From Akkermansia sp. (lineage in GTDB: Bacteria; Verrucomicrobiota; Verrucomicrobiia; Verrucomicrobiales; Akkermansiaceae), in contig JAGBDZ010000094.1 of the NCBI GenBank assembly GCA_017937215.1, forward strand, positions 1-64,000: DNA of 64,000 nucleotides, read 5' to 3'. Shown piece by piece: positions 8,356-11,538 of this stretch. The notes under the pieces were generated by a model. The model was not told the DNA's origin, did not search any database, and saw only the letters and a list, made by a program, of their open reading frames with translations. Position numbers and translations under genes: made by a program. How positions within the stretch are numbered: the first letter of the stretch is position 1; the number at the start of each line of letters is the position of its first letter.

Positions 8356-9189
8356 ATGCCCGGTTCCAACAACAGAAAACGAACAAAAAAACGAGCAGAG
8401 GAGGAAACTTCCCTGTGGGGCTTTCTGTTCAACAACAATGAGCAGGGACAGGATATCACCAAGAGTGCATTCTTCGGTCATCCCGGTGAAGAGGAAGATT
8501 CTGAAGAAGCTCCGGAGCAGCGGCACTGGCTGCACGAAATCTGGAGAAGGTTCAATTTCTGGAGCATACTTGCTATCACCATCTTCCTGGCTTTCACCAC
8601 AGTGCTGGTCAGCGCGGTGCTGAGCATGTGGACCCCGCAGAATATGCGGGACATTGCCGGATATTCCGACAACGGCAGCGCACGCGACATTACCGCCCTG
8701 CTCCGCAATGCCAATGGTCAGGAAATCAGCTTTACAGAGGCGGAGATTAACCGTTATCTGCGGGAAACCTGCCGCATCCGCCAGACCGGCGTCTTCTCCA
8801 TCATCACCCACGGCCACGGCATCGGGCTCCGCATCCACGATGGATATGCGGAACTGGTCATCGACCGTATGATTGGCGCCAACATTCACCAGACCACCTC
8901 CGTGAACCTGAGTTTTCGACAGGAAACTGAGCATGGGCGCCCCGTGCTGAAAGTTGATTTCAAGAGCACCACGCCACTTGCCGGCGATGTGCAGCACGGC
9001 GGCAGCATTGGTACTTTCGGCATTCCGGACCGCCACATCAGCATGTTGAATCCGGCGCTTCGCACACTGCTGGACTGCTACCCGGAAATTGCCGGTATCG
9101 TGGAAGAACACGGCTACTGCCCCTACTTCAGCAAAGGCCAGAACGGCAACGAAAGCCGTGTCCGTCTGGTCCCCTACCGACCTTCATAA
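8356..9189 (+). CDS. Single-pass membrane protein of unknown function
   Basis: 277 residues. Residues 1-65 are charged and likely cytoplasmic (NRKRTKKRAEEE at the start, acidic EEEDSEEAPE later). One transmembrane helix spans about 68-91 and roughly 185 residues follow, probably periplasmic. The distal part contains the alternating hydrophobic pattern of a beta-rich domain. No known motif is recognised. It heads a run of three same-strand genes (this, a lipoprotein and the LpxL-GT9 fusion) with gaps under 30 bp, so an envelope role is plausible by context only. Confidence 0.7.
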   Translation: MPGSNNRKRTKKRAEEETSLWGFLFNNNEQGQDITKSAFFGHPGEEEDSEEAPEQRHWLHEIWRRFNFWSILAITIFLAFTTVLVSAVLSMWTPQNMRDIAGYSDNGSARDITALLRNANGQEISFTEAEINRYLRETCRIRQTGVFSIITHGHGIGLRIHDGYAELVIDRMIGANIHQTTSVNLSFRQETEHGRPVLKVDFKSTTPLAGDVQHGGSIGTFGIPDRHISMLNPALRTLLDCYPEIAGIVEEHGYCPYFSKGQNGNESRVRLVPYRPS

Positions 9190-9217
9190 CTTACACAACT
9201 CAATTTCAGCACACACC

Positions 9218-9619
9218 ATGACCGCACGTCGACTGATTCTGCCTTTCGTAGCAGCATGCTCCATGCTCAGTCTCAGCTCCTGTATTTTCCAGCAGATTGC
9301 CAGCAATTTCATCCGCGACGAATACCCGGGCGAACGTCCGCCGCACGTCATTGCTGATATCAATGGCAAACCGGCCAGCAACAACTGGATTAAGGTCAAC
9401 CCCTACGATTTGCCTCCCTCGGGGCATCTCAATGGCCGCGTAGAATATGCAGATGATGGTCTGCCCTATGGGCTGCCCTGCGAGTTCTCCAACATCCTGG
9501 TTTCGCCCTACGAGCCATACTACCAGCTTGACTACAGCAACAGCAGCGTGGGTGACAAGGTGTGGGACCCCTATACCCGCAAGCCCTTCTACGTACCTCG
9601 TTTCCTGACAATCAATTAA
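9218..9619 (+). CDS. Small predicted lipoprotein
   Basis: 133 residues from the ATG at 9218, giving a signal peptide with lipobox LSSC (MTARRLILPFVAACSMLSLS then SC). The mature part is rich in Tyr, Pro and Asn and has no motif that I recognise. The frame stays open upstream to 9089, but that region overlaps the previous gene and lacks signal-peptide character. It lies 28 bp after the membrane protein and 12 bp before the acyltransferase fusion. Confidence 0.7.
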   Translation: MTARRLILPFVAACSMLSLSSCIFQQIASNFIRDEYPGERPPHVIADINGKPASNNWIKVNPYDLPPSGHLNGRVEYADDGLPYGLPCEFSNILVSPYEPYYQLDYSNSSVGDKVWDPYTRKPFYVPRFLTIN

Positions 9620-9631
9620 TAGCTGTTCGTT

Positions 9632-11500
9632 ATGAGTACCGATACTCCCACGAAAGCCACGTTTGGGCAAAAGGCCGGCGCATTTGCCTACAAGGTTTTC
9701 TGTGGCATTCTGCGGCTGCTGGATATCCGGATTGTTGCCATCTTCGGGCGTTGCATCGGTTACCTTGTCTGGGCGGCATTCCCCGGCCGCAGACGCATTG
9801 TTGCCCGCAATATGCGTATCGTGGCAGATCCCATGCTGCGAGGCAGCAAACTATCTGCACTGGTGCGCCGCAACATGGTACGCACCACTATGAACATGGC
9901 CTGCACGTTCAAGACAGGTCTGATGACGGACAAGGAATTCCAGCGTTCCGTCGCGCTTAGCGGTGCTGAAGAGTTTGAAAGACTGGCAGCCGGGGGCGAC
10001 TGCGTGATTGGCTGCATTCCGCATGCCGGCAACTGGGAAGTTCTGGCCCGCATCCGACCACTGTTCCCGAAAGTGAAGCGCTTCGGGTCCATGTACCGTC
10101 GGCTGGATAATCCGGTTCTGGAGGAGATCGTTTACAAGAGCCGCACGCGTTACGGCTGCGAAATGTTCAGCAACAAAAAGGGGCTGAAAGAAGTATTCCG
10201 TCTTGCAAAGGATGGTGGCATGCTGGGCGTACTGAGCGATCAATTCACCAAGCAGGGCTTCTTTGTACCCTACTTCGGCAAAGTGACCGGCACCACTCCG
10301 CTTCCCTCTCTCATCTACAAACGCTGCAAGGGTCGTGGTCATCTTTTTGCGGTATCCACCCGCAACACCGGTCTTGGCAAATGGGAGGCTGTACTGGGGC
10401 GTGAAATCGAAATACCGGAAGGCGATTTGGACACAGCTGAAATCACCCTGCTGGTAAATCAGGCACTGGAGGCCGTGCAGAAGGAAAGCATCATCGACGG
10501 CTTCTGGATGCACCACCGTTGGAAGTCGTTCGGTCGATTCTCCCCGAACCTTGATGAAAAGCAGAAAGAGCTCATCAGCAAGCACTACACCCTGCCGTTC
10601 CGCATCATCATCTGCGTGCCCGAGGCGTTTGAAGAGGCCGTACTCACCATTCCTTGCCTGCGCGAGCTCCGTGGCTGCCGCCCCGACATGCAGCTCAACA
10701 TCGTCTGTCCTGCGGCTCAGCAGGCATTCTGGAGCACACAGGAATACGTGGCCCATGTCGTGACTGATGAGCACCCGGTCGCCCAGCTGGAAGCCGATGA
10801 GTTGTACAAGGATGGGCCCTACGACTACCTCTTCATGTTCTCAGAGAACCGCAAATGCTTCCGGGACCTGCAGAAGCTCATGCCTCTGTACTCCAGCGGT
10901 TTTGCAGACAGTCCTTTCCGCAAGAAGCTCAACAATAAGTTTACCCTGCCGGTGGGCACAGCTCCCAACCACCGCTGCGAGGATTACCTGCTTCTTGCCG
11001 CCAGACACATTGCCCTTACAGGCGAGGGCTACGCAGATGCAGCCAAAGGCAACCAGACCGCCTGTGAGAACTTCATTGCGCCATTCTCCACCCTGGGTAA
11101 AGCAGATACCTGGCCGGCAGAACAATGGCAGGAGCTCATTGCCCGTCTGGATGGTAACGCCACTCTCCTTGCCTTCGAACAAGATAAGCCAGAAGCAGAA
11201 AAACTGGCCACGGCCTGGGGTATTCCCTGCAAGCTGGTGCGCCCCGAGACGGTGGCCGATGTGCTGGGGCCGAACTGCCGGCTCTATGCGGTGGATGGCT
11301 TGCTGCCGCAGCTGGCAGCGCTGGTGGGATGCCCGAGCCGAGTCATCATGTGCAGCCGACTGGCGGCTGTATATGGGCCGGCCGGAGATGGGCACAAGAC
11401 CTTCACGCAGCATGAGCCGTGTCACCCATGTTACCGACAGGAATGCGACCAGCAGCCTCCCTGCTCCGCCGGGGTTACAGTCGAGGAGCTCCTCTCCTGA
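9632..11500 (+). CDS. Fusion of LpxL/HtrB-type lipid A acyltransferase and GT9 heptosyltransferase-like domain
   Basis: 622 residues, about twice a normal LpxL. Residues 1-305 match the lysophospholipid/lipid A acyltransferase family: an N-terminal hydrophobic segment, the catalytic HxxxxE as HAGNWE (131-136) and the LSDQFTKQGFFVPYFG region. From about residue 325 a second domain starts (PFRIIICVPEAFEEAVLTIP) and ends with a Cys-rich tail (HEPCHPCYRQECDQQPPC) of the kind seen in ADP-heptose:LPS heptosyltransferases (GT9). One protein may therefore both acylate lipid A and add or recognise a core sugar. A strong terminator follows. Individual domains are well supported, but their joint function is inference. 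Confidence 0.8.
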   Translation: MSTDTPTKATFGQKAGAFAYKVFCGILRLLDIRIVAIFGRCIGYLVWAAFPGRRRIVARNMRIVADPMLRGSKLSALVRRNMVRTTMNMACTFKTGLMTDKEFQRSVALSGAEEFERLAAGGDCVIGCIPHAGNWEVLARIRPLFPKVKRFGSMYRRLDNPVLEEIVYKSRTRYGCEMFSNKKGLKEVFRLAKDGGMLGVLSDQFTKQGFFVPYFGKVTGTTPLPSLIYKRCKGRGHLFAVSTRNTGLGKWEAVLGREIEIPEGDLDTAEITLLVNQALEAVQKESIIDGFWMHHRWKSFGRFSPNLDEKQKELISKHYTLPFRIIICVPEAFEEAVLTIPCLRELRGCRPDMQLNIVCPAAQQAFWSTQEYVAHVVTDEHPVAQLEADELYKDGPYDYLFMFSENRKCFRDLQKLMPLYSSGFADSPFRKKLNNKFTLPVGTAPNHRCEDYLLLAARHIALTGEGYADAAKGNQTACENFIAPFSTLGKADTWPAEQWQELIARLDGNATLLAFEQDKPEAEKLATAWGIPCKLVRPETVADVLGPNCRLYAVDGLLPQLAALVGCPSRVIMCSRLAAVYGPAGDGHKTFTQHEPCHPCYRQECDQQPPCSAGVTVEELLS

Positions 11501-11510
11501 TAAATCAGAA

Positions 11511-11538
11511 AGCCGCGCAACTCCTGGCGCGGCTTTTT
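11511..11538 (+). terminator. Rho-independent terminator
   Basis: Arms AGCCGCGC (11511-11518) and GCGCGGCT (11527-11534) followed by TTTTT. Placed right after the LpxL-GT9 gene. Confidence 0.9.

Follow-up and report, generated by a model that had tools for sequence, protein, structure and literature searches.

A lipid A acyltransferase-like protein of Akkermansia fused to a probable pseudo-heptosyltransferase half

Introduction

What a lipid A acyltransferase and a heptosyltransferase-like domain do in one polypeptide is the question raised by an open reading frame in the window, the stretch of 64,000 nucleotides of Akkermansia sp. DNA that was analysed here. The initial annotation of this frame had proposed that an LpxL-type acyltransferase was joined to a GT9 domain, and had offered either a physical coupling of lipid A acylation and core glycosylation or a regulatory pseudo-transferase as its meaning. 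The LpxL and GT9 families are both known already, and domain databases may well already include the LpxL-GT9 architecture. A literature search found no prior account of an LpxL-heptosyltransferase fusion and no published account of a pseudo-GT9 in LPS, which is weak evidence of novelty in either case as subscription papers lay largely outside its coverage.

Results

The open reading frame and its acyltransferase half

The fusion is encoded on the + strand by an uninterrupted frame of 622 codons (9632..11500) that starts with the ATG at 9632 and whose stop codon ends at 11500. The source genome is Akkermansia-like (2.48 Mb in 151 contigs, 95.4% complete), and a search of this assembly returned a single copy. 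The closest named relative is the Akkermansiaceae isolate SIG71, at 74% identity. Residues 13-298 (9668..10525, +) form an LpxL/HtrB-type acyltransferase domain that passes the gathering score of PF03279 (Lip_A_acyltrans; 100.3 bits vs 22.3, E 1.5e-28). The HxxxxE site that had been reported for this protein is HAGNWE, residues 131-136 (10022..10039, +), and its His and Glu are present in 50/50 aligned fusions. An AlphaFold2 model of the whole protein, built from an alignment of these 50 fusions (alignment A1: 28 from Akkermansia including the window, and 22 order-level outgroup fusions), had a pLDDT of 91.8 and a pTM of 0.90. From residue 48 onward the model matched LpxM (5kn7) with a Z of 25.8. 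The curated NCBIfam cut-off for the LpxL/LpxP subfamily (TIGR02207) was missed (86.1 bits vs 297.8). Acyl transfer is the predicted function of this half.

The C-terminal half has the GT9 fold

Profile searches barely detect the C-terminal half: PF01075 gave 10.5 bits, under its cut-off of 22, and NCBIfam gave TIGR02193 with an E of 0.062. Its GT9 identity is nevertheless clear by fold. Residues 323-622 of the model superimpose on WaaF (1psw) with a VIA Z of 17.8 over 287 residues (rmsd 3.2), and the same half matches WaaC (2h1f), again with a Z of 17.8, and one more GT9 protein. The match of the predicted model to 1psw indicates that the GT-B fold of GT9 is present. PF01075 matched 31/50 members of A1.

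The acceptor-side N-lobe comprises approximately residues 322-468 (10595..11035, +), the structural match to 1psw and 2h1f beginning at residue 323. The donor-side C-lobe, defined by the alignment and the structure match, comprises approximately residues 469-622 (11036..11497, +); it has lost the donor motifs. The border between the lobes was placed from the AlphaFold2 model together with the endpoint of a truncated clade described below. The Cys-rich tail of the initial annotation proved to consist of four cysteines, C597, C600, C605 and C611 (11420..11464, +), which are nearly invariant among the 50 fusions of A1. Two Akkermansia fusions (L096 and L097, from genomes G085 and G046) have lost the tail, while all else in the C-lobe stays.

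The GT9 half also resembles chains of the chloroplast NDH-PSI supercomplex (7wff_a, 7f9o_6 and 9grx_1; Foldseek E 5e-8 to 9e-5, VIA Z 12.6-13.6). On these structural matches, it is possible that a GT9-like fold serves there as a structural subunit. A literature search for PnsB1 as a non-catalytic GT9-like precedent gave nothing relevant.

The catalytic residues of the GT9 half are altered in Akkermansia

Residues of E. coli WaaC were placed on the window protein via the outgroup fusion L110. The place of the catalytic base D13 is taken by E335 (10634..10636, +) and that of the donor-binding K192 by D492 (11105..11107, +). The DTGxxH donor motif is replaced by DGLLPQ, residues 555-560 (11294..11311, +), in which D261, T262 and H266 of WaaC correspond to D555, G556 and Q560, so that D555 alone is retained. 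According to the available part of a review (PMC5713226), the activity of WaaC drops 4688-fold in D13A, 926-fold in K192A and 2027-fold in D261A. A search of PMC8124905 for such residues gave no match.

These changes separate Akkermansia from its relatives. The DxGxxH motif occurs in 22/22 outgroup sequences of A1 vs 0/28 from Akkermansia, in which a lone His is found in L041. Lys at position 492 is present in 21/22 outgroup fusions (L119 is without it) and in none of the 28 Akkermansia proteins, where this position is not fixed. Asp at position 335 is found in all 22 outgroup members and in one of the 28 from Akkermansia (L034), the others having Glu (25), Ser (1) or Lys (1). D555 is retained in 50/50 sequences. 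In one-frame fusions from further families of the class, the Asp, the Lys and DxGxxH are all kept (19/19). The cut-off of the curated WaaF model TIGR02195 was exceeded by three of the four outgroup fusions tested (L099, L100 and L110, not L119), and no match above this cut-off was found in the 116 genomes of the window's own family. In the relatives both halves of the fusion apparently work. Of the two meanings that had been offered for the fusion, the pseudo-transferase, for which regulation would be one possible role, is the one favoured by these replacements in the window protein.

The fusion is an old trait of the class

An order-level search gave a match in 370/386 genomes. Within the genus 67 of 69 genomes matched and two gave no match; 52 of the 67 have the full-length fusion in a single frame, and 13 encode LpxL and the first GT9 lobe only, the match ending at about residue 434-462. 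The remaining two are G015, with two overlapping ORFs, and G315, in which the fusion is split across contigs. At least four further families of the order have full-length one-frame homologues of 23-26% identity. With an outgroup fusion as the query, a search of the phylum matched at least 283 of 288 genomes; at least 23 genomes of the same class but outside the order matched over both halves. Outside the class, none of the matches listed covers both halves, and the GT9 half alone was matched. The matches over both halves across the class imply that the fusion is an old trait of the class and not a curiosity of the window. The premise that the two activities are normally found in separate proteins therefore does not hold here, as fusions of LpxL to a canonical WaaF are widespread among the relatives.

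In G015, of the A. muciniphila type (L091:2945-5063), the two ORFs arise at the linker, where a homopolymer differs in length. A-runs at this place are seven long in two relatives and four to six long in four others, and slippage and sequencing error are both possible as the origin of the break. A 20th locus from the further families of the class (G629, L155:3155-5135) also reads as two ORFs; its break lies within the GT9 half and leaves ORFs of 476 and 175 aa.

Gene neighbourhood

In the window's clade the fusion is preceded by a gene with a membrane-like segment, as judged by eye (8356..9189, +), and by a small lipoprotein-like gene, also judged by eye and with an inferred start (9218..9619, +), which ends 12 bases 5' of the fusion; the pair at 8356-9619 is not found in this position in A. 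muciniphila-type or outgroup loci. Promoter and terminator scans around the fusion gave nothing beyond chance, a terminator-like hairpin 3' of the stop codon (11509..11536, no strand assigned) included (three found vs 3.3 expected). The Pfam-identified neighbours in the window are nadC, dprA, a D-Ala-D-Ala carboxypeptidase and recJ, so that the context adds little. Among 10 neighbouring proteins at four loci, Pfam identified one DegT-type aminotransferase and no lipid A or core transferase, and an LPS operon context was rejected on this ground.

Selection and lobe-wise loss

Within the clade of the window, synonymous sites are almost saturated (window vs L031, pN/pS: LpxL 0.10/0.68, N-lobe 0.23/0.78, C-lobe 0.20/0.65), and dN/dS was therefore determined in closer pairs of the A. 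muciniphila type. In 15 such pairs (Nei-Gojobori) LpxL had values of 0.07-0.14, the N-lobe of 0.07-0.22 and the C-lobe of 0.09-0.25, those of the GT9 lobes being mostly 1.5-2 times that of LpxL. The GT9 half is under purifying selection. Of 53 C-lobe positions that are fixed in the outgroup, nine are unchanged in Akkermansia, nine have switched to a different residue that is again fixed, and 35 have become free. The switched positions are fixed in at least 90% of the 28 Akkermansia sequences, and several of them lie at donor loops (554, 556, 559 and 576). Together with the dN/dS values these counts show that constraint from the former role has loosened in the lobe, which is nevertheless not neutral.

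The ten aligned proteins of the truncated clade (two of them identical) all stop at the lobe border. A confident structure model of one of them (pLDDT 91.7, pTM 0.90) has the N-lobe as its last domain, and neither a donor lobe nor a second GT9 fragment was found within the stretches examined in this clade. In other genera of the family, eight loci were read in detail, and their tails measure about 100-170 residues. A profile of the N-lobe weakly matched three of these (L102 1.5e-8, L106 3.6e-5 and L101 5.3e-5) and gave no match to the other five. The donor lobe is dispensable among the genomes examined. In an LpxL tree with 84 proteins, three changes account for the four states, the minimum possible, and the intact forms lie on one side of a branch with support 95/82; the tree contains long branches.

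Heptose genes and published LOS chemistry

In the window genome no GT9 above the Pfam cut-off was found. An HldE-like gene (TIGR02199) was not found either: the best match (E 2e-23, 83.5 bits vs a cut-off of 181.5) sits in a frame of 155 aa, and this absence is not certain because the genome is 95.4% complete. Co-occurrence was counted, ignoring kinship, in 37 genomes of the genus with a completeness of at least 90%. An HldE-like match (TIGR02199, E <1e-44) is accompanied by a PF01075 match (<1e-13) in 28, and none of these 28 HldE-like matches is over the curated TIGR02199 cut-off. The nine others, the window genome included, have neither HldE-like gene nor stand-alone GT9 (G000, G050, G060, G067, G073, G198, G216, G246 and G247); two of them gave weak PF01075 matches only, located inside the fusion itself. 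G050 belongs to the truncated clade, which suggests that heptose was lost more than once. Six of the 28 were searched again (G001, G010, G015, G070, G085 and G213). In these, the main GT9 stands alone as a gene of its own and scores best as heptosyltransferase I, under the cut-off in all six; three of the six have the hldE-like gene at a distance from it of about 2 kb or less.

The accessible portions of two papers (PMC13135019; PMC12527988) give one heptose for the core oligosaccharide of A. muciniphila. This fits the loss of the second heptosyltransferase, and a single heptose would be expected if one WaaC-like enzyme works beside a WaaF half that is dead. For strain HW07, the accessible text of the latter reports one low-identity LpxL homologue, no lpxM and a mainly tetra-acylated lipid A (PMC12527988); the tetra-acylation suggests that LpxL activity may be low in HW07. 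A further source, available in part, is a description of TibC (PMC4358343).

Discussion

We consider it probable that the protein belongs to the LpxL family of secondary lipid A acyltransferases and has kept a pseudo-heptosyltransferase half, which helps the acyltransferase. To judge from present-day sequences, an ancestor would have made a bifunctional LpxL-WaaF enzyme. In the lineage of the Akkermansiaceae the WaaF half appears, from its altered residues, to have lost what is needed to bind and use ADP-heptose, and to have been kept under the purifying selection that the dN/dS values record. The most likely reason for this is that the N-lobe packs against the acyltransferase, where it would aid folding, membrane docking or the holding of Kdo-lipid A; the acceptor lobe may still face or hold this substrate, or it may stabilise LpxL. 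The donor lobe is expendable among the genomes examined, given that one clade has dropped precisely this lobe and that only short tails are left in other genera of the family.

The GT9 half might instead be a working glycosyltransferase whose ADP-heptose site has been rebuilt for another nucleotide sugar. The invariance of D555 and the mildness of the change to E335 mean that residual activity on another donor may persist, and the nine fixed switches, several of them at donor loops, could reflect a rebuilt rather than a dead active site in a lobe with a dN/dS well below 1. It is an unlikely reading: D13 and K192 have both been replaced, two species have Ser or Lys at position 335, position 492 is unfixed, and one clade has lost the whole C-lobe with no second copy in the stretches examined. 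Loss of constraint at 35 of 53 C-lobe positions also fits slow decay, and the half could be a functionless relic still awaiting loss. The repeated shortening within the family and the higher dN/dS of the GT9 lobes agree with this. We hold it to be at least as doubtful as a changed donor, since the frame is open in 52 of the 67 matched genomes of the genus, both lobes have a dN/dS far under 1, a compact fold is predicted with confidence, and the truncated clade ends at a clean lobe border and not at random points.

That the protein couples two LPS steps as a bifunctional acyltransferase-heptosyltransferase in the window organism, a gut Akkermansia, is very improbable. The architecture is genuine and the relatives have canonical forms, so that coupling suits them; in the window the catalytic residues are lost, no GT9 exceeds the cut-off in its genome, and the best HldE-like match there has an E of 2e-23 vs <1e-44 in 28 genomes of the genus. 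An active WaaF in the window is disfavoured on the same grounds. A frame or assembly error joining two genes, for which the two ORFs of G015 could be cited, can practically be dismissed, given a single full-length frame in 52 of the 67 matched genomes from separate assemblies and fusions found across the class.

Within the preferred reading of a retained pseudo-heptosyltransferase half, we tentatively raise the idea that it presents substrate to LpxL and positions it, in that its acceptor lobe would bind Kdo-lipid A without a second (or any) heptose and tune both the timing and the strength of acylation. If true, a pseudo-transferase would help to determine the properties of the LOS of Akkermansia, which is under-acylated and stimulates the immune system weakly. 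The fusion is a candidate for the control of lipid A acylation in A. muciniphila, a commensal, and the pseudo-WaaF could account for the one heptose that has been reported in its LOS. The reading predicts no more than one heptose for cores of Akkermansia that have HldE, zero for the species of the window, and at least two where a relative has kept its fused WaaF intact. It also makes an evolutionary series testable, from intact LpxL-WaaF through full-length pseudo-WaaF and acceptor lobe only to a short remnant.

Compared with known systems, the window protein shares with LpxL/HtrB/LpxM (PF03279; 5kn7) the HxxxxE site, the fold from residue 48 and the Pfam score, but it scores under all curated NCBIfam LpxL/LpxM cut-offs among the models listed and has an additional GT-B domain. 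JFJHEM_01585 of A. muciniphila HW07, a 'potentially new acyltransferase', is likewise a low-identity LpxL homologue and probably the orthologue of the fusion; the text available to us (PMC12527988) mentions no second domain, whereas the window protein has two domains. Residues 323-622 have the fold of WaaF (heptosyltransferase II, TIGR02195, 1psw, GT9), and the window protein has the four-Cys tail in common with those outgroup fusions that reach the WaaF score. The window protein differs from WaaF in the catalytic base, the donor Lys and DTGxxH, and in staying under the PF01075 and TIGR02195 thresholds. It agrees in domain order with the canonical LpxL-WaaF fusions that other families of the class possess, and is homologous to them over the full length, but the GT9 half of those fusions carries the catalytic motifs, whereas that of the window protein does not.
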